This document shows positions 5,927 to 44,314 of a stretch of DNA of 64,000 nt, one piece after another. A program made the translations under genes and the position numbers. The stretch is from Serratia marcescens. Its GTDB lineage: Bacteria > Pseudomonadota > Gammaproteobacteria > Enterobacterales > Enterobacteriaceae. Every line of letters starts with the position of its first letter. Position 1 is the first letter of the stretch. The notes beneath the pieces were generated by a model. The model was not told the DNA's origin and did no database searches. It worked only from the letters and a program-made list of their open reading frames with translations. Where the stretch lies: NCBI RefSeq assembly GCF_029846115.1, contig NZ_JARVZZ010000001.1:1612001-1676000 (forward strand). Direction: 5' to 3'.

Positions 5927-6528
5927 AGCGGCGGCGCCTGTTTGCGTGCCAGCTGCAGCACGTTGGGGTGGACGCGCACGCCGCTGCGTGCCAGGGCGTC
6001 CAGGTTGACCTTGAAACTGGCCTGATCCCCATCGATAAGCAGGCAAAATGCGCTGCCGGCGGAGCATTCGCTATCGTTCTCGCTGATGCTGAGAATGGAG
6101 TTGCCGGAAATGCGCTGCATGAAATTTTGTCTCTGCGCGGCGTTGATGTTCCCTAAATAGATGACATCACAGCCGGTACTCAACGTTGGGCTGTCAAACG
6201 GTACGCGTTCGGTTTTAATCGGACGCGGCGCGCTCAGCAGGATCGGATCGAACAGCCCTTCGGCATACTGGGTGGGTGCGGTCACGCACAAGCGGATCGG
6301 ATTGGGCTCACGCGACCAGCGGGCGTAGCTGATGATGCCGACCACCACGGTCGTCACGGCGTGCGTACGCTTTTGATAGGGATCATCGGCGGCGTGCGCA
6401 GGCCCGGGCAACGTCAGCAGCACCAACAACACGATCAGTAGCAGGCGGCCGATATTCAGGCGTGCGTCAAGGAAGCCCGGCACGGGGCTTTTTGCGCAAC
6501 GCATCGCTATCGCGGTTTTATTCGCCAT
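5923..6528 (-). CDS. yfiR: Periplasmic repressor YfiR of diguanylate cyclase DgcN
   Basis: A 201-residue exported protein. The hydrophobic segment LLLIVLLVLLTLPGPAHA is a signal peptide ending near AHA. The mature domain has four cysteines (in LCVTAP, TGCDV, SECSAG, AFCLL), consistent with the two disulfides known in Pseudomonas YfiR. It binds the periplasmic part of DgcN and blocks cyclase activity; the redox state of the envelope and YfiB modulate it. First gene of the operon, with a 4-base overlap with dgcN. The ATG at 6528 (preceded by GGGTGAAG) is preferred; an ATG at 6504 is possible. Confidence 0.9.
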   Translation of the reverse strand: MANKTAIAMRCAKSPVPGFLDARLNIGRLLLIVLLVLLTLPGPAHAADDPYQKRTHAVTTVVVGIISYARWSREPNPIRLCVTAPTQYAEGLFDPILLSAPRPIKTERVPFDSPTLSTGCDVIYLGNINAAQRQNFMQRISGNSILSISENDSECSAGSAFCLLIDGDQASFKVNLDALARSGVRVHPNVLQLARKQAPPL

Positions 6529-7167
6529 CTTCACCCGCCATTCCGGCCTGATCCACCGCCCGCAGGCCGTGGCCTGACAAGGAAAAATCCGGCCCGCTTG
6601 AAGGGACAATCGTTTTGCTGAAAGCTGTCAGTCGCACTGCCTAATGAACACTATCTAACCCATAATTGGCGCGGATTGTATTATAAGATGCCTTCGTTGG
6701 GCGCTTTATGTGCTGTTTTCTCGGAATTATCCTACTTATTTTTGATAGTATAAAAATGCCTACCCGGGTTTGCCACCGCTTTTCTGCAAAGTTGGCGCGT
6801 TTGGCCAGCTGTCAGGCGATTTGCGCAACGGCGCTGCCATCTTATAAATGCAATAATGTGATAGCTAATAATTAAAAAATATTTTACTTCCCCAATAAAC
6901 GCCGAAGCAGCTAATAAAAATCCGGTAGCCAGAAATATTCCGCCGGCCTGATTTGTCAGCCAAAGTAAACGTTTTTTACCTGGCTCCCGTCATGACGATA
7001 CACTTCTTCTTCTACAGTATTGAATGGATAAGCGATTGCGCTGTCTATGGTAGATATCTGCGACCGGGCCGTGCGCCCGGCATTATTTTGTCCCGCGGCG
7101 CTGTGGCGCGGCGGTCACCGGGGAGCTGGGCGGCTCCCGCGGTACAACCAGTGAGGAAAGAGCGAGG
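6529..7167. other. Long intergenic region between yfiR and slt
   Basis: These 639 bases separate divergent yfiR and slt. The stretch is AT-rich in its middle (about 6690-6930), unlike the flanking genes. Open frames here are short and lack ribosome sites or family resemblance. It must hold the yfiR and slt promoters, but I could not place a convincing pair; GAGGAAAGAGCGAGG just before 7168 is the slt ribosome site. Confidence 0.4.
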
Positions 7168-9096
7168 ATGGTCAAGGTGGACAAGCGACGGCTGTTGGCA
7201 ATGGGCCTGTGCCTGACGGCGTTTTCAGGCGCGGCACTGGCGGATTCTCTGGATGCGCAACGTCAGCGCTACCAGCAGATCAAGCAGGCGTGGGACGGCA
7301 ATCAGATGGATGTGGTGGCGCAGCTGATGCCGACGCTGCGCGATTACCCGCTTTATCCTTACCTGGAATACCGCAAGCTGACACAGGATCTGAGCCAGGC
7401 GGGGTTCTCCGAGGTGAACGACTTTATCAAGCGCAACCCGACGCTGCCGCCGGCGAAATCACTGGCGCCACGCTTCGTCAATGAGCTGGCGCGGCGCGAA
7501 GACTGGCGCACCCTATTGGCCTTCAGCCCGCAGCCGCCCAAACCGGTGGCGGCGCGCTGCAACTATTACTACGCCAAGTGGGCCACCGGCGACCAGCAGG
7601 CGGCCTGGAGCGGCGCCGACGAACTGTGGCTGAACGGCAAAACGCTGCCGGGCGCCTGCGATCGGCTGTTCAGCGTCTGGCGCGGCGCAGGTAAGCAGAC
7701 GCCGCTGGATATTCTGGCGCGCATGAAGCTGGCGTTGAAAGAGGGCAACAGTTCGCTGGTCAGCAACCTTTACAGCCAGCTGCCGGCCGACTATCAAACC
7801 ATGGGTAACGCCCTGGTGCGCTTGCAAAACGATCCGACCACCGTGGAAGCCTTTGCCCGCAGCGTGGGGCCGACCGATTTCACCCGCGCTGCCACCGGCA
7901 TCGCCTTTGAACGCCTGGCGCGGCAGGATGTGGAAAACGCGCGGGCGATGATCCCGACGCTCGCGCGGCTGCAGAAAATGAGCGATGACGAGCGGCTGGG
8001 GCTGGAAGAGGCGGTGGCCTGGCGCCTGATGGGCAGTGACGCTACCTATGAACAGGCGCAGTGGCGCGATCAGGTGATTCTGCGCAGCCGTTCGCCTTCG
8101 CTGCTGGAGCGCCGGGTGCGTATGGCGCTGGGCAACGGCGATCGGCAAGGTGTCGCGACCTGGCTGGCCCGTCTGCCGGAAGCGTCGCGCAACAAGGATG
8201 AGTGGCGCTACTGGCGCGCCAGTCAGCTGATGGACGAAGGGAAACGCGCCGAAGGCGAGGAGATATTGCGTAACCTGATGACCGAACGCGGCTTCTATCC
8301 GATGGTGGCGGCGCAGAAGCTGAAGGCCACTTATCCGGTGATGGTGGCGGTGGCAGCCAAGCCGCGCGCGTCGCTGACCGACGGGCCGGAAGTCGCCCGG
8401 GTGCGCGAGCTGATGTACTGGAATATGGACAACCTGGCTCGCAGCGAGTGGGGCTCTTACGTCGCCAGCCGCAGCCGGCCGGAACAAGAGGCGCTGGCGC
8501 GCTACGCCTTTGAGCAAAAATGGGCCGATCTGAGCGTGCAGGCGACCATCGTCGGCAAGCTGTGGGATCATCTGGAGGAGCGCTTCCCGGTAGCCTGGCC
8601 GCAGGAGTTCCGCCGTGCCACCGATGACAAGGGGATCACCACCAGCTACGCGATGGCGATAGCGCGTCAGGAAAGCGCCTGGAATCCGAAGGCGCAGTCG
8701 CCGGTTGGCGCTACCGGCCTGATGCAGGTGATGCCGCGCACCGCGCAGCATACGGTGCAGATGTTCAATATTCCCGGTTACGTCGGCCCGAGCCAGCTGT
8801 TCGATCCGCAGACCAACATCACCATCGGCACCAGCTATCTGGAGTCGGTCTATCAGCAGTTCGGCCGCAACCGCATCCTGTCGAGCGCCGCCTATAACGC
8901 TGGCCCGTCGCGTGTGAACACCTGGCTGGGCAACAGCGCGGGGCGTATCGATCCGGTGGCGTTCATCGAAAGTATTCCGTTCTCGGAAACCCGCGGCTAC
9001 GTCAAGAATGTACTGGCCTACGATGCGTTTTACCGCTATCTGACGCACCGGCCGGCCAAGATGCTGACCGACGCCGAGTGGCAGAGACGTTATTGA
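7168..9096 (+). CDS. slt: Soluble lytic murein transglycosylase Slt70
   Basis: A periplasmic enzyme of 642 residues that cleaves the MurNAc-GlcNAc bond of peptidoglycan to 1,6-anhydro products. A signal peptide ends near AALA (about 25). A long alpha-helical superhelix follows, then a C-terminal lysozyme-like domain (about 485-620) with the catalytic Glu502 in ARQESAWNPK and the family motifs GATGLMQVMP and SAAYNAGPSRV. The length matches E. coli Slt70 (645). In E. coli it follows ettA directly; here the yfi module lies between. Alone in its transcript, with trpR 54 bases after it under its own promoter. Confidence 0.97.
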   Translation: MVKVDKRRLLAMGLCLTAFSGAALADSLDAQRQRYQQIKQAWDGNQMDVVAQLMPTLRDYPLYPYLEYRKLTQDLSQAGFSEVNDFIKRNPTLPPAKSLAPRFVNELARREDWRTLLAFSPQPPKPVAARCNYYYAKWATGDQQAAWSGADELWLNGKTLPGACDRLFSVWRGAGKQTPLDILARMKLALKEGNSSLVSNLYSQLPADYQTMGNALVRLQNDPTTVEAFARSVGPTDFTRAATGIAFERLARQDVENARAMIPTLARLQKMSDDERLGLEEAVAWRLMGSDATYEQAQWRDQVILRSRSPSLLERRVRMALGNGDRQGVATWLARLPEASRNKDEWRYWRASQLMDEGKRAEGEEILRNLMTERGFYPMVAAQKLKATYPVMVAVAAKPRASLTDGPEVARVRELMYWNMDNLARSEWGSYVASRSRPEQEALARYAFEQKWADLSVQATIVGKLWDHLEERFPVAWPQEFRRATDDKGITTSYAMAIARQESAWNPKAQSPVGATGLMQVMPRTAQHTVQMFNIPGYVGPSQLFDPQTNITIGTSYLESVYQQFGRNRILSSAAYNAGPSRVNTWLGNSAGRIDPVAFIESIPFSETRGYVKNVLAYDAFYRYLTHRPAKMLTDAEWQRRY

Positions 9097-9098
9097 TT

Positions 9099-9127
9099 TT
9101 GACGGCCCTATGGTATGCTGCTGTACT
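9099..9127 (+). promoter_or_regulatory. trpR promoter
   Basis: TTGACG at 9099-9104 and TGTACT at 9122-9127 are separated by 17 bases. The -10 hexamer falls inside the TrpR operator, as expected for autorepression. The pair was read by eye. Confidence 0.55.
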
Positions 9128-9140
9128 AGTTAAATAGTAT
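9123..9140 (+). promoter_or_regulatory. TrpR operator (autoregulatory)
   Basis: GTACTAGTTAAATAGTAT is an imperfect palindrome that closely matches the trp operator core (CTAGTTAACTAG). It overlaps the -10 region and start of the trpR transcript, so tryptophan-loaded TrpR should repress its own gene. Confidence 0.85.
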
Positions 9141-9150
9141 GGTGGCTGCC

Positions 9151-9480
9151 ATGACGCAATTATCGTTAAACGACCCCGCTCTTTCAGAACAAGGCAATGA
9201 GGATTGGCTGCGCTTCGTCGCGCTGCTGCAGAATTCGTTTGCGCAAGAACTGCATCAGCCGCTGCTGCAACTGATGCTGACGCCGGACGAGCGCACCGCG
9301 CTGGGCACCCGGGTGCGGATCATTCAGGAACTGATGCGCGGCGAGATGAGCCAGCGCGAGCTGAAAAATGAACTGGGCGCGGGGATCGCCACCATCACCC
9401 GCGGCTCGAACAGCCTGAAAGCGGCTTCACCCGAGCTGAAACAGTGGCTCGAGCAGCAGCTGTTGCATGACGCGCCCTAG
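9151..9480 (+). CDS. trpR: Trp operon repressor TrpR
   Basis: A 109-residue all-helical dimeric repressor that binds DNA when loaded with L-tryptophan. The family core [20 protein letters not shown] is followed by the helix-turn-helix [20 protein letters not shown]. The ATG at 9151 is chosen because the distance to DWLRF then equals that in E. coli TrpR (Trp19); an ATG at 9139 lies inside the operator. It should repress itself through the overlapping operator and act on trp, aroH-type and related promoters elsewhere. Confidence 0.96.
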
Positions 9481-37224: not shown

Positions 37225-37695
37225 ATGACGGCTCAGGTTATCAGTGACAGCGCGGTGCTGGTTCACTTTACGCTGAAACTGGAAGACGGTTCGACCGCCG
37301 AATCCACCCGCAACAGCGGCAAGCCGGCGCTGTTCCGCCTGGGTGACGGCAGCCTGTCGGCGCCGCTGGAAGCGCAACTGCTCGGCCTGCGCGCGGGCGA
37401 CAAGTGCGCCTTTACCCTGCAGCCGGAAGCGGCGTTCGGCGCGGAGAACCCGGATTTGGTCCAGTTCTTCTCGCGCCGCGACTTCGCGGAAACCGGCGTG
37501 CCGGACGTGGGCACCATCATGCTGTTTACCGCCATCGACGGCAGTGAAATGCCCGGCGTGGTGCGCGCGGTGGCGGAGGATTCAATCACCGTTGATTTCA
37601 ACCATCCGCTGGCGGGCCATCCGGTGACCTTCGATATTGAAGTGCTGGAGATCGATCCGCAGCAGGAGGAGACGCATGCAAATATTGCTGGCTAA
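37225..37695 (+). CDS. fkpB: FKBP-type peptidyl-prolyl isomerase FkpB (SlpA)
   Basis: A 156-residue SlyD-like FKBP with an inserted chaperone flap. [20 protein letters not shown] and [20 protein letters not shown] are family motifs. The start at ATG 37225 gives an N-terminus of the same length as in E. coli FkpB (SAVLVHF at 9-15). It lies one base after lspA, and its end overlaps ispH by 20 bases. The C-terminus is a few residues longer than in E. coli. Confidence 0.95.
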
Positions 37696-38629
37696 CCCGC
37701 GCGGCTTCTGCGCCGGGGTTGATCGTGCGATCAGCATCGTGGAACGCGCGCTGGAATTGTATGGCGCGCCGATCTACGTGCGGCATGAAGTGGTGCACAA
37801 CCGCTACGTGGTCGACAGCCTGCGTGAGCGCGGCGCCGTGTTTATCGAAGAGATCGCCGAGGTGCCGGACGGCTCTATCCTGATCTTCTCGGCGCACGGC
37901 GTTTCTCAGGCGGTGCGCGCCGAAGCCAAGGCGCGCGATCTGACCATGCTGTTCGACGCCACTTGCCCGCTGGTGACCAAGGTGCATATGGAAGTAGCGC
38001 GCGCCAGCCGCCGCGGTACCGAAGCGATCCTGATCGGCCACGCCGGGCATCCGGAAGTGGAAGGCACCATGGGCCAGTACAGCAACCCGAAGGGCGGCAT
38101 GTATCTGGTCGAATCGCCGGAAGACGTGTGGAAGCTGCAGGTGAAAGACGAAAACAACCTGTGCTTCATGACGCAGACCACGCTGTCGGTTGATGATACC
38201 TCGGACGTGATCGACGCGCTGCGTCAGCGCTTCCCGAGCATTATCGGCCCGCGCAAGGATGATATTTGTTACGCCACCACCAACCGTCAGGAAGCGGTGC
38301 GTAACCTGGCCGGCGATGCGGACGTGGTGCTGGTGGTGGGGTCGAAGAACTCCTCCAACTCCAACCGTCTGGCGGAACTGGCGCAGCGCGTCGGCAAACC
38401 GGCTTATCTGATCGATTCGGCGGCGGATATTCAGGAAGGCTGGCTGAGCGAAGCGCGCAATATCGGCGTTACCGCCGGCGCCTCTGCGCCGGACGTGCTG
38501 GTGCAGGAGGTGATCTCTCGCCTGAAAGCGCTGGGGGGCCTGGACGTGCATGAAATCAGCGGGCGTGAAGAGAACATCGTGTTTGAAGTGCCTAAAGAGC
38601 TGCGCGTGGATGTTCGGCAGATAGACTGA
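37676..38629 (+). CDS. ispH: 4-hydroxy-3-methylbut-2-enyl diphosphate reductase IspH
   Basis: A 317-residue iron-sulfur enzyme, the last step of the MEP isoprenoid pathway, giving IPP and DMAPP. Cluster ligands include Cys12 in [12 protein letters not shown], the Cys in [11 protein letters not shown] and the Cys in [16 protein letters not shown] 37676 follows GGAGGAGACGC inside the end of fkpB. Last gene of the operon, followed by a terminator. Essential. Confidence 0.98.
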
Positions 38630-38902: not shown

Positions 38903-39829
38903 TTATTCCTGCCGAATATGTTCTACGGCGGTTAATCCCTTCTCCTGCAAATAGAGTTTCATATGTTCCAGCAACCGTCTGACTTTTAATGGCTGGATCT
39001 CCCTGCGCGGCATAATGGCATAGCAATTAATTTCCGGTAACCGCCAATCGGGTAATATTTCAATCAATTCACCGCTGCGCAATTCACGTTCAACGTTGGC
39101 GAAGAAATTGCGAATGATACCCTTGCCGGTCAGCGCCAACTCCTTCATCGCCATACCGCTGTTGGTGAACAAACGCCCGGTCATGCGCATGCGGTGTTCA
39201 CCGCCGTTGCGATGGATAAGACGGACAAACTGCGGGTTGCCGAGCGGCGTAAAGGTCACCCAGTGGTGATGGCTCAGCGCCTGCGGCGAATCCGGCACGC
39301 CGTGGTGTGCCAGGTAGGCCGGCGAGGCGCACAACACTTCGCGGCAGCGCGCCAGCCGCGTGGAAACGTAGCTGGAGTCGGCCAGCACGCCGCCGCGTAT
39401 CGCCAGATCGATGCGTTGCGCGATCAGGTCTATCTTCTCATCGTGGATCTCCAGCCGCAGCGTGAGCCGAGGATGCTCGTCGAGAAAGCTTTGCAGCGCC
39501 GGCACCAGATAGTGAGTGGCGAATTCGGTGGAGGTGGCGACGCGCAGTTCGCCGACCAGCTCGCCGCGCAATGCGGCGATCCGTTGTTGGCCACGTTCGG
39601 CGGCGTGGATCATCAGCAGGCAATCCTCATAAAAACACAATCCTGCTTCGGTCAGACTCAATGAACGCGTCGATCGCAGCAGTAATTGAATGCCCAGATG
39701 CTCCTCCAGCTGGCGAATATGTTGGCTGACGGCGGAGGTCGTCATGCCCAATTCTTTTGCCGCCATGCTGAATGCGCCGCAATCGACCACTTTTGAGAAA
39801 ATGGCCATGCGTTTTAAAATATTGCTCAT
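38903..39829 (-). CDS. LysR family regulator divergent from the isonitrile cluster
   Basis: A 308-residue LysR-type regulator. The winged HTH (about 4-62) contains FSMAAKELGMTTSAVSQHIR and the usual LRSTRSLSLTEAG wing. The effector domain (about 90-300) belongs to the CrgA/DsdC-like group often annotated as regulators of aromatic or secondary metabolism. It is divergent from isnA with 191 bases between, so it is the probable local regulator of isnA-isnB-GT. The ligand is unknown. No such gene lies between ispH and dapB in E. coli. Confidence 0.9.
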   Translation of the reverse strand: MSNILKRMAIFSKVVDCGAFSMAAKELGMTTSAVSQHIRQLEEHLGIQLLLRSTRSLSLTEAGLCFYEDCLLMIHAAERGQQRIAALRGELVGELRVATSTEFATHYLVPALQSFLDEHPRLTLRLEIHDEKIDLIAQRIDLAIRGGVLADSSYVSTRLARCREVLCASPAYLAHHGVPDSPQALSHHHWVTFTPLGNPQFVRLIHRNGGEHRMRMTGRLFTNSGMAMKELALTGKGIIRNFFANVERELRSGELIEILPDWRLPEINCYAIMPRREIQPLKVRRLLEHMKLYLQEKGLTAVEHIRQE

Positions 39830-39958
39830 AGTTTGTTAAGCACAACTTAACCAAGATTGTGAATTATACGGGCTAATAATATAGCACCATCTCTTCTATA
39901 TTGCCTGAAGCATATAAACGCCGGGCTGATTATTATTTTGCAGGGATTTTTTCTCTTT

Positions 39959-39988
39959 TTGATAAATCTTATTGCGCTTATCAATAAT
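39959..39988 (+). promoter_or_regulatory. Putative promoter/operator of the isonitrile cluster
   Basis: TTGATAA (39959-39965) and TTATCAA (39978-39984) form a perfect 7-base inverted repeat with 12 bases between. TTGATA and AATAAT (39983-39988) also make a -35/-10 pair at 18 bases, so a bound regulator would cover the promoter. This AT-rich gap contrasts with the GC-rich genes. Confidence 0.45.
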
Positions 39989-40020
39989 ACACCCGCGCCA
40001 CATCGCAACAGGAGCTCATT

Positions 40021-40986
40021 GTGGACAGCGCTCAGAAAGAAGAAATATCGTTAAAGATCCTACGTGAATTATTGCAATACCGCCGCCGTTTCCCCGGCGA
40101 CGACACCTCGATCGCCGAAGAAGAGCGGCGGGTCACTCAGGTGCAATTGCCGCGCATTCGGGCATTCATCGAAAACGAGCAACGTATCGAATTCGTGCTG
40201 CCGGCCTTTCCCACCAAGTCGCCCAACACCAACAAGGTGATCGGTGCGGTGCCGGACATGGCGGAGCGGCTGTCGCTGATCTTCCTCAACTCGCTGTGCC
40301 AGCGCATTCAGCTCTATTACCCGCCGGGGGCGCATATCGTTATCTGCTCCGATGGCCACGTGTTCGGCGATCTGATCCGCGTCAGCGACGACGCGATCAA
40401 CCACTATCAGCGTGAGATTGAAAGCCTGCTGCATGAAGTGGGCGCGACGCACCTGAGCGTGTTTAACCTCGGCGACGTCAAAGGCCTGGCGGAGCATACC
40501 GATGATTACGATCTGCTGCGCCGGCTGTTGGTGGAGGGCTACGCCGAATCGGAAGAGGCGATCAAGCAACAGCTGATGCAGGACGAACAGGGCCTCTTGC
40601 TGTACCGCGCCATCACGCGTTTCCTGTATGAAGACAGCCAACTGCCGGGCTACAGTGGTTCCAACGCCGCGCTGCAGAAAGACGCCAAGCAGCGCGCCTG
40701 CGGGGTGATCCAACGCAGCTGGGCCTGGGGCAACCTGCTGGCGCAGCATTTTCCGGCGGCGATCCGCCTGTCGATTCACCCGCAGCCGGTCGACAGCCTG
40801 AAAATGGGCATCCACATGATGCCGACCAAAGACGACTGGCTGACGCCGTGGCACGGTGTGGCGGCCAACGTGAACGGCCAGTTCGTGTTGATGAAGCGTA
40901 AAGACGCGCAGAGCCTGGACGGCGAACTGGTGGAAATCCGCGGCACGCCGAGCCATTACCTGATCGAACAACCGCAGGTGGCCTGA
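40021..40986 (+). CDS. isnA: Isonitrile (isocyanide) synthase, PvcA/IsnA family
   Basis: A 321-residue member of the DIT1/PvcA family. These enzymes convert the amino group of an aromatic amino acid (tyrosine or tryptophan) to an isonitrile, with the carbon coming from ribulose 5-phosphate. Family segments seen are PAFPTKSPNT (61-70), HIVICSDGHVFGDLIR (105-120), AIRLSIHPQP (247-256) and TPWHGVAA (275-282). The start is GTG 40021 with AGGAG eight bases before it. It is first of three co-directional genes and followed by a terminator-like hairpin before isnB. Tyrosine as substrate is inferred from rhabduscin-type neighbours, not shown. Confidence 0.92.
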   Translation: MDSAQKEEISLKILRELLQYRRRFPGDDTSIAEEERRVTQVQLPRIRAFIENEQRIEFVLPAFPTKSPNTNKVIGAVPDMAERLSLIFLNSLCQRIQLYYPPGAHIVICSDGHVFGDLIRVSDDAINHYQREIESLLHEVGATHLSVFNLGDVKGLAEHTDDYDLLRRLLVEGYAESEEAIKQQLMQDEQGLLLYRAITRFLYEDSQLPGYSGSNAALQKDAKQRACGVIQRSWAWGNLLAQHFPAAIRLSIHPQPVDSLKMGIHMMPTKDDWLTPWHGVAANVNGQFVLMKRKDAQSLDGELVEIRGTPSHYLIEQPQVA

Positions 40987-41003
40987 GGCCGCTGCGGGCT
41001 TTT

Positions 41004-41031
41004 GCCCCCGATATCCTGCGGGGGCTTTTTT
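41004..41031 (+). terminator. Intrinsic terminator between isnA and isnB
   Basis: GCCCCC (41004-41009) pairs with GGGGGC (41020-41025) over a ten-base loop, followed by six T. It lies inside an otherwise contiguous gene cluster, so it probably lowers, rather than stops, isnB and GT expression. Confidence 0.75.
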
Positions 41032-41081
41032 GACGGCACGTTGCCGTGTGAGCAGCACATTCGATGCAAGGAGAATCACCG

Positions 41082-41945
41082 ATGAACAACCAACCGCTTA
41101 ATTGCCATATTCAACCGAATACCCCGTTTGGCGCGATCCTGACGCCGCAGCATCCGGGGCAAAAGATCGGCGAACTGCCGGTGGCGGCGCTGCGGGCGCT
41201 GGCGCAGGAACATCACTTGCTGGTGCTGCGTGGATTCGACTCCGGTTTCAGCGAGGCGGAAGTCCTGACTCGCTACGCCGAGCAGTGGGGCGAGATCATG
41301 ATGTGGCCGTTCGGTGCGGTGCTGGACGTGAAGGAGCATCCGGACGCCAAAGATCATATTTTCGACAGCAGCTACGTCCCGCTGCATTGGGATGGCATGT
41401 ATAAGCCGACCATCCCCGAGTTCCAGCTGTTCCACTGCGTGGCGGCGCCGTCGCAGGACGAAGGCGGGTGCACTACTTTCGTCGATACCACGCGGCTGTT
41501 GGCCAATGCGGATGAAGCGCTGCTGGATCAGTGGCTGTCGGTGTCGATCACCTACCGCATCAAGCAGGTGGTGCATTACGGCGGCGAAGTCTGTTCGCCA
41601 CTGGTGGTGCAGCACCCGAACGGCAGGGGGTTGATCATGCGCTACAATGAACCGCCGACGGAGGGGAAAAAATTCCTCAATCAGCATGCGCTGGAATATC
41701 ACGGCGTGCCGGAACAACAGCAGGAACAGTTCCATCACACTCTGCAGCAGCACCTGTACGATCCGCATCACTATTATGCCCATCAGTGGCAGCAGGGCGA
41801 CGTGGTGGTGGCGGACAACTTCTCGCTGCTGCACGGCCGTGAGGGTTTTACCGCCCGTTCCGCGCGTCATTTGCAGCGCGTGCATATTCAGAGCAACCCG
41901 GTGTGCGCCAATCTGGCGCTGAAGCCGGCCAACGCAGAAGCGTAA
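41082..41945 (+). CDS. isnB: Fe(II)/2-oxoglutarate oxygenase, PvcB/IsnB family
   Basis: A 287-residue TauD-like oxygenase. The iron ligands are His102 and Asp104 in PLHWDGMY and His251 in LLHGREGF, with Arg262 or Arg266 placed to bind 2-oxoglutarate. PvcB/IsnB enzymes oxidatively decarboxylate or desaturate the isonitrile amino acid to a vinyl isonitrile or a related product. ATG 41082 follows AAGGAGAATCACCG; the frame opens six codons earlier. It lies 95 bases after isnA, with a hairpin between, and 9 bases before the glycosyltransferase. Confidence 0.92.
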   Translation: MNNQPLNCHIQPNTPFGAILTPQHPGQKIGELPVAALRALAQEHHLLVLRGFDSGFSEAEVLTRYAEQWGEIMMWPFGAVLDVKEHPDAKDHIFDSSYVPLHWDGMYKPTIPEFQLFHCVAAPSQDEGGCTTFVDTTRLLANADEALLDQWLSVSITYRIKQVVHYGGEVCSPLVVQHPNGRGLIMRYNEPPTEGKKFLNQHALEYHGVPEQQQEQFHHTLQQHLYDPHHYYAHQWQQGDVVVADNFSLLHGREGFTARSARHLQRVHIQSNPVCANLALKPANAEA

Positions 41946-41954
41946 AGGAGCATT

Positions 41955-43229
41955 ATGGCAAGGATACTGATGGCGGCGGTCGCCACTCCTGGGCACGTCT
42001 ACCCGATGTTGGCTATCGCTCGCCACCTGATTGCCCAAGGGCATCAGGTGCGGGTGATGACCGGCGCGCTGTTTCGCGAACGCGCTGAGGCGGCTGGGGC
42101 AAACTTCGTGCCATTCGACGCGCAGGTGGATTTCGATTATCGCCACCTGGAAGAGCACTTTCCGGCGCGCGCCGCGCTGCCGCCGGGCAATGCGCAGATG
42201 GCGCTGGCGCTGAAGGATTTCTTCGCCGCACCGATCCCGTTGCTGGATCGGCAACTGCGTGCGGCCATCGCTGCCGAAAAGACCGATCTGCTGATGGTGG
42301 AGAACTGCTTCTACGGCGTGCTGCCGCTGCTGCAGTCCGCCGAGCGGCCGCCGGTCTTCGGTATCGGCGTCACGCCGCTGTCGTATTCTTCGCGCGATGC
42401 TATTTTTTATGGCCCGCGTATCCCGCCGGCGTTGCTGCCGCAGGCGTTGACCCGTGAGCAGCTGGTGGATGAAGAAACGCGCGTGCTGCTCGATGAAGTA
42501 CAGCAGAGCTTCGATGCGGCGCTGGTGCAGGCGGGCGGGCGGGCGCTGGATCGCCCGTTCACCGACGCGCTGATCGGCGACTGCGAGCGTTTCCTGCAGC
42601 TGGCTACCACGGCGCTGGAATATGAGCGTGACGATCTGCCGAGCGGCGTGCGCTTCGTCGGTCCGCTGCGCAGCGGCGGCCAGCCGGCGGCGGAAGAGAC
42701 GCTGTGGGAGGCGGACGATCGTCGGCCGCTGGTGATCGTGTCTCAGGGCACGCTGGCCAATGTCGATCTGCATCAGCTGATCGTGCCGACGCTGCAAGCG
42801 CTGGCGCATCTGCCGGTGCGGGTGCTGGCCACCACCGGCGGGCGGGCGACGGAAGGGCTGATGGACGCGCTGCCGGGCAATGCCAGAGTGCGGGAATTTA
42901 TCTCCTTCGAACGCTGGCTGCCGGAGGCGGCGCTGCTGATCACCAACGGCGGTTACGGCTCGATCAACGCTGCGCTGGACAGCGGCGTGCCGCTGATCGT
43001 CGCCGGTACCGGTGAGGACAAGCTTGAGGCGGCCGCGCGCGTGGTGGCCGCCGGCTGCGGCATCAGTCTGCATACCAGCACACCGACCGCCGAACAGATC
43101 CTGGCGGCGGCGACGCGCATTCTGCAACAGCCGATCTATTGGCAACGCGCGGCGCTGGTGCGTGAGGATTATGCCCGCCACGACGCGCTGACGGCGATCG
43201 CCAACGAAGTGGCGGCCATTACCGCCTGA
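41955..43229 (+). CDS. GT-B glycosyltransferase of the isonitrile cluster (UGT/MGT type)
   Basis: A 424-residue nucleotide-sugar-dependent glycosyltransferase (COG1819-like). The N-terminal acceptor domain begins ARILMAAVATPGHVYPMLAI; the C-terminal donor domain has SQGTLAN (263-269) and TNGGYGSINAALDSGVPLI (330-348), with Asn where many relatives have His in HGG. In Xenorhabdus a neighbouring glycosyltransferase adds an amidosugar to the tyrosine-derived vinyl isonitrile to give rhabduscin. No sugar-biosynthesis gene lies nearby, so the donor must come from elsewhere (for example the ECA/LPS pathways). AAGGAG precedes the ATG. Confidence 0.88.
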   Translation: MARILMAAVATPGHVYPMLAIARHLIAQGHQVRVMTGALFRERAEAAGANFVPFDAQVDFDYRHLEEHFPARAALPPGNAQMALALKDFFAAPIPLLDRQLRAAIAAEKTDLLMVENCFYGVLPLLQSAERPPVFGIGVTPLSYSSRDAIFYGPRIPPALLPQALTREQLVDEETRVLLDEVQQSFDAALVQAGGRALDRPFTDALIGDCERFLQLATTALEYERDDLPSGVRFVGPLRSGGQPAAEETLWEADDRRPLVIVSQGTLANVDLHQLIVPTLQALAHLPVRVLATTGGRATEGLMDALPGNARVREFISFERWLPEAALLITNGGYGSINAALDSGVPLIVAGTGEDKLEAAARVVAAGCGISLHTSTPTAEQILAAATRILQQPIYWQRAALVREDYARHDALTAIANEVAAITA

Positions 43230-43251
43230 CCTCGCCGTTCTCCTTTCCCCT

Positions 43252-43276
43252 GGCGCCGTTTTCGGCGCCTTTTTTA
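43252..43276 (+). terminator. Terminator of the isonitrile cluster
   Basis: GGCGCCG pairs with CGGCGCC around a T-rich loop, followed by six T. Confidence 0.88.
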
Positions 43277-43459
43277 TGCATTTTTTTGCCATGGAAACTG
43301 CATGATTATGTACAATCGTCGCAGGCCGCCAAATCGGTTGAATGTTAATCTCACGACAGCGCCGCTGATGAGAACGGAGGAATATCATAATTTTCTAATT
43401 ATGAAATGAATCCTCTGGCGACGCTGAAGCGGGGCGGTTACCCTGAATCGATAGCCTAA

Positions 43460-44314
<855 letters not shown>

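Follow-up and report, generated by a model that had tools for sequence, protein, structure and literature searches.

The isn locus and its occurrence in Serratia

A four-gene locus for predicted isonitrile biosynthesis was analyzed in a 64,000-nucleotide stretch of a Serratia marcescens genome (contig NZ_JARVZZ010000001.1, positions 1,612,001 to 1,676,000). This whole stretch is called the window, and its numbering is used throughout. The locus consists of a divergent lysR gene, the isonitrile synthase gene isnA, the desaturase gene isnB and a gene for a GT-B glycosyltransferase (GT), all with open reading frames. It is flanked by ispH (37676-38629) upstream and dapB (43493-44314) downstream, both of which score over their NCBIfam cut-offs. 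An earlier note, made from the letters alone, had described this layout and the HxD...H iron site of IsnB, and the description was confirmed by coordinates, Pfam and NCBIfam. The locus is a probable Serratia isonitrile-glycoside cluster of known class, and it is found in most of the genus genomes examined.

The lysR gene (38903-39829, minus strand) matches the Pfam families LysR_substrate and HTH_1 and is divergent from isnA. The isnA gene, pvcA in print, lies at 40021-40986 on the plus strand and has a GTG start. Its product, a DIT1_PvcA protein, scores 649.3 bits against the NCBIfam equivalog NF045653 (L-tyrosine isonitrile synthase; cut-off 600), has 9dhm, 9dh4 and 3e59 as solved relatives, and is the sole match to its family in the genome. 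The isnB gene (pvcB in print; 41082-41945, plus strand) encodes a TauD-family protein, a predicted Fe/2-oxoglutarate tyrosine-isonitrile desaturase/decarboxylase of the PIsnB type, in which the metal ligands H102, D104 and H251 are intact and accompanied by the arginine R262. The start given by the open-reading-frame finder, 41064, is upstream of the likely ribosome site, and the ATG at 41082 was taken instead. The third enzyme gene is that of the GT (41955-43229, plus strand), after which comes dapB. The GT matches EryCIII-like_C and Glyco_transf_28, is a relative of the rhabduscin GT, and has the donor loop E354-D355-K356.

Of 30 Serratia genomes, 26 have IsnA as defined by NF045653. These carriers are 4.9-5.9 Mb in size, and the other four genomes 1.5-3.6 Mb. 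In all 26 carriers lysR, isnB and the GT gene stand beside isnA, although these loci end within the GT, which is seen there only as its first 169 to 173 residues. A scan of named genomes gave 57 loci: 13 from Serratia, 10 from Pectobacterium (L073 and L075 are two contigs of a single genome), 19 from Xenorhabdus, 13 from Photorhabdus and one each from Pseudomonas and Phaseolibacter. The order lysR-isnA-isnB-GT was found in 13/13 of the named Serratia loci, of which 12 have ispH on the upstream side and 11 have dapB on the other. Because this order recurs in all 13 named loci and all 26 isnA-bearing genomes, the locus is not a chance arrangement. The exceptions in the flanks are L025, from a metagenome-assembled genome (MAG) of S. 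liquefaciens, whose contig begins near lysR, and L028, from S. quinivorans. In both (L025, 4594-8304; L028, 9239-12956), other genes on the opposite strand follow the GT before any dapB. They were considered as extra pathway genes and set aside, since on inspection by eye they look like genes for the catabolism and transport of sugar acids. A plasmid-borne locus was also rejected, as megablast gave 0 matches among 72,556 plasmid records.

Predicted product of the locus

Enzymes that form vinyl isonitriles have Lys/Arg and Asn/His at two selectivity positions, whereas isocyanoacrylate formers have Leu and Cys (PMC9467999, Nat Commun 2022). The window IsnB has K108 and N189, the signature of the vinyl formers. 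By direct alignment, K and N are also found in 7tcl, which is PIsnB of Photorhabdus luminescens (PMC9467999), and L and C in P. aeruginosa PvcB (3eat). The closest solved chain to the window IsnB is 7tcl, at 394 bits compared to 281 bits for 3eat. Among 73 IsnB rows, 50 (including the window) are K/N, 19 are R/N, one is L/C (locus L067 of Pseudomonas mangiferae) and three are other (L017, L019 and the broken L070). Both PIsnB and its Aeromonas hydrophila orthologue, PIsnB-Ah, yield the vinyl isonitrile in vitro (PMC9467999). The window protein is 58-61% identical to Photorhabdus IsnB and 64-65% identical to an A. hydrophila IsnB, possibly another protein than the assayed PIsnB-Ah. In a tree of 31 chosen IsnB rows, made by a quick method and with long branches flagged, the Pseudomonas PvcB-type row falls outside a 27-row group that includes Serratia (Shimodaira-Hasegawa-like approximate likelihood-ratio test, SH-aLRT, 99). 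At the level of sequence, the assignment of IsnB as a vinyl-isonitrile former of the PIsnB type, and not of the paerucumarin PvcB type, is supported.

We propose that the locus encodes a pathway of three enzymes together with a dedicated LysR regulator. IsnA would convert L-tyrosine to tyrosine isonitrile, which IsnB, acting as a decarboxylating Fe/2-oxoglutarate desaturase, would turn into 4-(2-isocyanovinyl)phenol. The GT would then put a nucleotide-activated sugar on the phenol to give an isocyanovinylphenyl glycoside, and this product would be expected to bind copper enzymes, for example tyrosinase and phenoloxidase. One known compound with such a group is byelyankacin from Enterobacter sp. 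B20, an alpha-L-rhamnoside with an isocyanovinyl group that inhibits tyrosinase with a half-maximal inhibitory concentration of 2.1 nM (PMC10420840). Because IsnA matches its equivalog, IsnB is of the PIsnB type and the GT is related to the rhabduscin GT, it is probable that the locus makes an isocyanovinylphenyl glycoside of the rhabduscin/byelyankacin class, whatever the sugar and with rhabduscin proper counted within it. The glycosylated, tyrosine-derived vinyl isonitrile predicted by the earlier note is therefore well supported as a chemical class. Its wider interpretation, which drew on rhabduscin, holds for that class; rhabduscin itself would be a doubtful product, since the donor loop of the GT is unlike that of rhabduscin makers.

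The GT is 57% identical to P0055, annotated in X. nematophila as 'rhabduscin glycosyltransferase'. Its relatives were the best 120 of 294 matches, drawn from the 8000 candidates sharing most words. The donor loop was compared in 156 aligned rows of at least 380 residues, namely 117 of these 120 (three shorter ones were dropped), the window GT and 38 loci, with some proteins present twice. The loop is EDK in 109 rows, DGK in 41, EGK in 5 and ESK in 1. EDK rows come from Serratia, Pectobacterium, Dickeya, Rouxiella, Aeromonas, Pseudomonas and others; DGK rows from Xenorhabdus, plus one MAG, one Providencia and one further row; and the EGK and ESK rows from Photorhabdus. The same pattern was seen in 35 additional GT matches (EDK 14, EGK 16, all from g235 and in overlapping loci, and DGK 5). 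The acidic residue of the loop is thus kept in all Serratia rows and absent from all Xenorhabdus and Photorhabdus rows examined. In the window GT it is D355; solved relatives, 10zg and YjiC among them, have the Asp/Glu of their D/E-Q motif at the aligned position. In the GT-B fold, the acidic residue of this motif touches the donor sugar.

The sugar of rhabduscin is 4-acetamido-4-deoxyfucose (Fuc4NAc). Marker enzymes of two deoxythymidine diphosphate (dTDP) sugar pathways were found in the genome, both over cut-off: RmlD, of the dTDP-rhamnose pathway, and WecD/RffC, of the dTDP-Fuc4NAc pathway. Since the GT retains the usual acidic donor-loop residue, we lean towards a sugar other than the amido-sugar of rhabduscin within the glycoside class. 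A rhamnoside, as in byelyankacin, or a hexoside would be more likely than an amido-sugar, and a byelyankacin-like rhamnoside is no worse a fit than rhabduscin.

Rhabduscin proper, a sub-case of the glycoside class, would carry the amido-sugar used by Xenorhabdus and Photorhabdus and, as in those genera, protect against insect phenoloxidase. The gene order and the kinship of the GT with that of Xenorhabdus are in its favor, as is the presence of WecD/RffC, the presumed donor-pathway enzyme. E. coli overexpressing the X. nematophila cluster produces rhabduscin, whose sugar is described simply as 'amidoglycosyl' (PMC6386379); the sugar donor is therefore supplied by the host. Against this, the Xenorhabdus (DGK) and Photorhabdus (EGK/ESK) rows lack the acidic residue that every Serratia row keeps. 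The Gly or Ser of the rhabduscin makers is not found in the Serratia GT, although taking this position as a mark of rhabduscin makers is a criterion of our own and not an established one. We consider this sub-case unlikely, though less so than the other alternatives.

The locus very probably has a published counterpart that the earlier note missed, to which a different product has been assigned and for which RssAB/iron regulation is known (PMC5109203). This is the pvc cluster of S. marcescens CH-1 (sma0021 / pvcABC, KC291199; PMC5109203, Sci Rep 2016). It is very probably the window locus, since the genome has a single DIT1_PvcA gene, and two named S. marcescens strains (L022, L069) bear the same four genes. 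The pvc cluster is repressed by phosphorylated RssB / iron and is needed for timely swarming (PMC5109203). In the iron-sensing swarming/biofilm model of S. marcescens, its product is a chelator that switches RssAB off (PMC5109203). We tentatively propose instead, with a little less than even confidence, that the Serratia 'pvc' cluster makes a byelyankacin-like glycoside with a non-rhabduscin sugar and no iron-chelating coumarin, that the RssAB iron circuit controls an inhibitor of copper enzymes, and that the chelator model rests on a misassigned compound.

Several points count against the glycoside class as the product. Three actinobacterial R/N IsnB rows fall on the side of the tree with the Pseudomonas L/C row, so the tree and the K/N rule are not in full agreement. 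Single mutants of the A. hydrophila enzyme kept their product, and the K/N rule is a correlation (PMC9467999). An IsnA tree of 24 chosen rows, with the Pseudomonas row among the long branches, leaves the two types unseparated, and the IsnA cut-off of 600 does not follow type (478.2 for Pseudomonas L067 and 478.1 for the K/N-type G326). IsnA is uninformative here because both types make the same isonitrile. A grouping of the pair with paerucumarin PvcAB, named in the earlier note as an outcome that would speak against it, is thus contradicted by IsnB, which stands apart from the Pseudomonas PvcB type, and left undistinguished by IsnA. In a GT tree of 27 chosen rows, those from Xenorhabdus, Photorhabdus and Providencia group together in a single clade (SH-aLRT 95); the change from Asp to Gly/Ser is confined to it and so counts as a single event, not as repeated evidence. 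Supernatant of S. entomophila MOR4.1, a strain that may or may not carry the Serratia cluster, left Spodoptera frugiperda phenoloxidase uninhibited in the absence of the Xenorhabdus cluster (PMC6386379). Finally, liquid chromatography-mass spectrometry and nuclear magnetic resonance assign paerucumarin (2-isocyano-6,7-dihydroxycoumarin, ICDH-coumarin) to the S. marcescens cluster, and the added compound rescues the phenotypes (PMC5109203). An hpaBC pair is present in the genome, 83 kb from the locus, and the 26 isnA carriers among the 30 genus genomes are also the ones with an HpaB, one in each and encoded away from the locus. The ring could therefore be hydroxylated in trans.

According to the published assignment, IsnA and IsnB would form an isocyanoacrylate, and HpaBC hydroxylation and lactonization would give the coumarin, which would chelate iron and act on RssAB and swarming; the role of the GT would lie elsewhere. 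Deletion and complementation phenotypes and binding by phosphorylated RssB (RssB~P) also favor it (PMC5109203). However, the window IsnB has K108/N189 in place of the Leu and Cys of the PvcB type, and by Pfam no HpaB-type pvcC is among the four locus genes, while the Pseudomonas control L067 has HpaB_N/HpaB. The negative-mode m/z printed for the compound, 204.03023 (PMC5109203), is that of the [M-H]- of C10H7NO4 (0.0 parts per million, ppm). Paerucumarin, C10H5NO4, would be expected at 202.0146 as [M-H]-, and its [M+H]+ of 204.0291 is 5.4 ppm from the printed mass. C10H7NO4 would also suit an open-chain dihydroxyphenyl isocyanoacrylate, which would back the isocyanoacrylate route, so the mass alone is not decisive. 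The gene sequences speak against paerucumarin as the product and lend the published assignment no support, and we regard it as unlikely. The weakest alternative, in which free isocyanovinylphenol is the active compound and the GT serves only detoxification or storage, is improbable. In its favor, phenoloxidase is still partly inhibited by an X. nematophila GT mutant, and the aglycone of P. asymbiotica is cited as inhibiting complement (PMC6386379). Against it, the GT adjoins isnAB in all 26 isnA-bearing Serratia genomes, an arrangement compatible with a role for the glycoside but no proof of one.

If the cluster does make an isonitrile glycoside, the RssAB-off step of the swarming/biofilm model needs another explanation. 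Most Serratia genomes examined would then carry a trait that could block tyrosinase and phenoloxidase. The possible products can be told apart directly by mass, the predicted neutral masses being 291.1107 for the rhamnoside, 307.1056 for the hexoside, 332.1372 for the Fuc4NAc glycoside and 203.0219 for paerucumarin. At the IsnB step, the [M-H]- would be 144.0455 for the vinyl isonitrile and 188.0353 for the isocyanoacrylate.

LysR and candidate control elements

Besides the published counterpart, the earlier note missed the restriction of the LysR linkage to Serratia among the loci examined, a conserved palindrome, a terminator-like hairpin between isnA and isnB, and the donor-loop Asp D355 of the GT. 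An ortholog of the lysR gene adjoins isnA in 13/13 named Serratia loci and in 0/44 non-Serratia loci, a set that excludes Rouxiella and in which L035, L037, L042 and L075 have less than 1.3 kb upstream of isnA. The host-specific LysR regulation suggested by the earlier note would fit this pattern of linkage. The best NCBIfam models for the LysR protein, YafC and AaeR, are far under cut-off. Among the 120 matches listed, its relatives of more than 80% identity that carry an organism name are from Serratia. It is 33% identical to a LysR near a Pectobacterium cluster and 30% identical to the LysR beside the P. mangiferae pvc operon, which sits on the opposite side. The latter value, from a comparison with the P. 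mangiferae protein, gave no support to the idea that the LysR is a PtxR orthologue.

Sites of LysR-type regulators follow a T-N11-A rule. The palindrome GTTAAG-N5-CTTAAC (39835..39851, unstranded), with T-N11-A inside, is a candidate site 5 bases upstream of the lysR start. With one mismatch allowed, the window has no second match, and 100 shuffles gave none. Genome-wide there is one exact copy; at up to one mismatch, the genome equals the control (4 and 4 per strand). All but one of 20 aligned Serratia rows keep both arms whole, and the palindrome is a likely LysR site. The RssB region of the published cluster, -349 to +38 of pvcA (PMC5109203), would cover the palindrome when placed on the window. 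The isnA promoter would be subject to RssB~P/iron repression, as published for S. marcescens CH-1, and we infer control by LysR. A candidate for this promoter, TTGATA-18-AATAAT (39959..39988, plus strand), was identified by consensus only, with 10/12 matches. The region has 5 promoter-like sites compared to 1.9 (standard deviation 1.3) in shuffles, and TTGATAA is retained in 18 of 20 Serratia rows.

The hairpin in the isnA-isnB gap (41004..41025, plus strand) has 7 G-C pairs, followed in the window by TTTTTT. Across 18 chosen distinct Serratia rows, 99.2% of cells are paired and 2/7 pairs have changed on both sides. Shuffles matched the observed values in 3/500 cases for paired cells and for covariation and in 26/500 for pairs changed on both sides; relatedness can inflate this covariation, and one of the two pairs covaries in the window only. 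Folding of the gap overall gave a z of -0.79, with 36/200 shuffles equally good, and the region shows no clear excess of terminator-like sites (8, and 5.3 with a standard deviation of 2.2 when shuffled). Apart from the broken L070, loci of other genera have shorter gaps, and inspection by eye showed no similar hairpin in those genera. The hairpin may lower transcription of isnB and the GT gene relative to isnA. Another terminator-like hairpin, also of 7 G-C pairs and then TTTTTT, lies 3' of the GT gene (43252..43269, plus strand).

A second inverted repeat, ACGGCA-CGT-TGCCGT (41033..41047, plus strand), is found in the isnB leader and is followed by GTGAGCAGC, up to 41056. Of 18 aligned Serratia rows, 14 have exact copies of both arms. 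It was rejected as a recurring regulatory element, as it has one genome copy only, at up to three mismatches, and it has no Rfam match at E <= 1. A known RNA in the isnA-isnB gap was likewise rejected for want of an Rfam match there. The only Rfam match, asX2 on the other strand (43251-43315), is weak at 21.7 bits (gathering threshold 70).

Relatives and comparison with known systems

In an order-level sample of 394 genomes, an IsnA match was found in 8 and was over cut-off in 5. The GT was found at E <= 1e-60 in 23/392 sampled family genomes, from 5/154 genera. It follows isnB in all Serratia (13/13) and Xenorhabdus (19/19) loci, in 7/10 Pectobacterium loci (one of them broken) and in none of the 13 Photorhabdus loci. 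Four genomes of the group g235 have two GT copies away from isnA; the P. luminescens GT is described as separate and duplicated in PMC6386379, where isnAB in S. marcescens is also mentioned. Among the matches listed, the Rouxiella proteins P0124 (IsnB, 82%) and P0033 (GT, 67%) show a putative further extension of the cluster, to Rouxiella.

Other loci were found with parts of the gene set. In the genus g196, five loci (L098, L099, L100, L108 and L119, from genomes G503, G604, G673 and G732) have a GT 69-70% identical to that of the window and, within 1.5 kb, nothing that matches isnA or isnB; for L119 there was none among 8 scanned frames including the GT. The same four genomes carry distant IsnA-like genes (37-40% and 29-30%) elsewhere. 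The GT of Dickeya dadantii, P0032, is 70% identical to the window GT, among the matches listed, and by this identity g196 is probably Dickeya. L035 (Pectobacterium sp. CFBP8739) and L076 (P. brasiliense) have isnA with no isnB or GT match in about 6 kb downstream, which suggests that the later pathway steps were lost. In L070 (Pectobacterium sp. PL152, 6001-9200), isnA, isnB and the GT were matched only as broken pieces. Distant PvcA-like genes occur in L018 and L017 (37-38%) and L019 (25%). L017 belongs to G321 and the other two to G282, where two PvcA-like genes are about 2 kb apart, one of them within an open frame of 879 residues.

The S. marcescens CH-1 pvc cluster differs from the locus as described here in its account: paerucumarin is assigned in print, and the main text of PMC5109203 has 0 occurrences of glycosyltransferase and 0 of LysR. 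The Pseudomonas pvcABCD/ptxR system resembles the locus in its PvcA/PvcB homologues and nearby LysR gene, and in P. aeruginosa PtxR activates the pvc operon (PMC3639982). Its PvcB signature is L/C and that of Serratia K/N. In P. mangiferae, an hpaB-type pvcC and a frame with a cytochrome-c domain follow, and the LysR is at the far end of the operon. Byelyankacin, likened to the Serratia locus by chemistry and not by gene cluster, shares the predicted aglycone, and its alpha-L-rhamnose would suit the canonical donor loop of the GT. The X. nematophila rhabduscin cluster has the same three genes in the order isnA-isnB-GT. Across the 19 Xenorhabdus loci, IsnA is 69-72% identical and IsnB is of the vinyl type (R/N or K/N). 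In contrast to Serratia, no such LysR adjoins the Xenorhabdus loci examined, the isnA-isnB gap is shorter and has no like hairpin by eye, and the GT loop is DGK instead of EDK. A. hydrophila is like Serratia both in IsnB, which has K and N, and in a related GT (56-57% identical) with the EDK loop.

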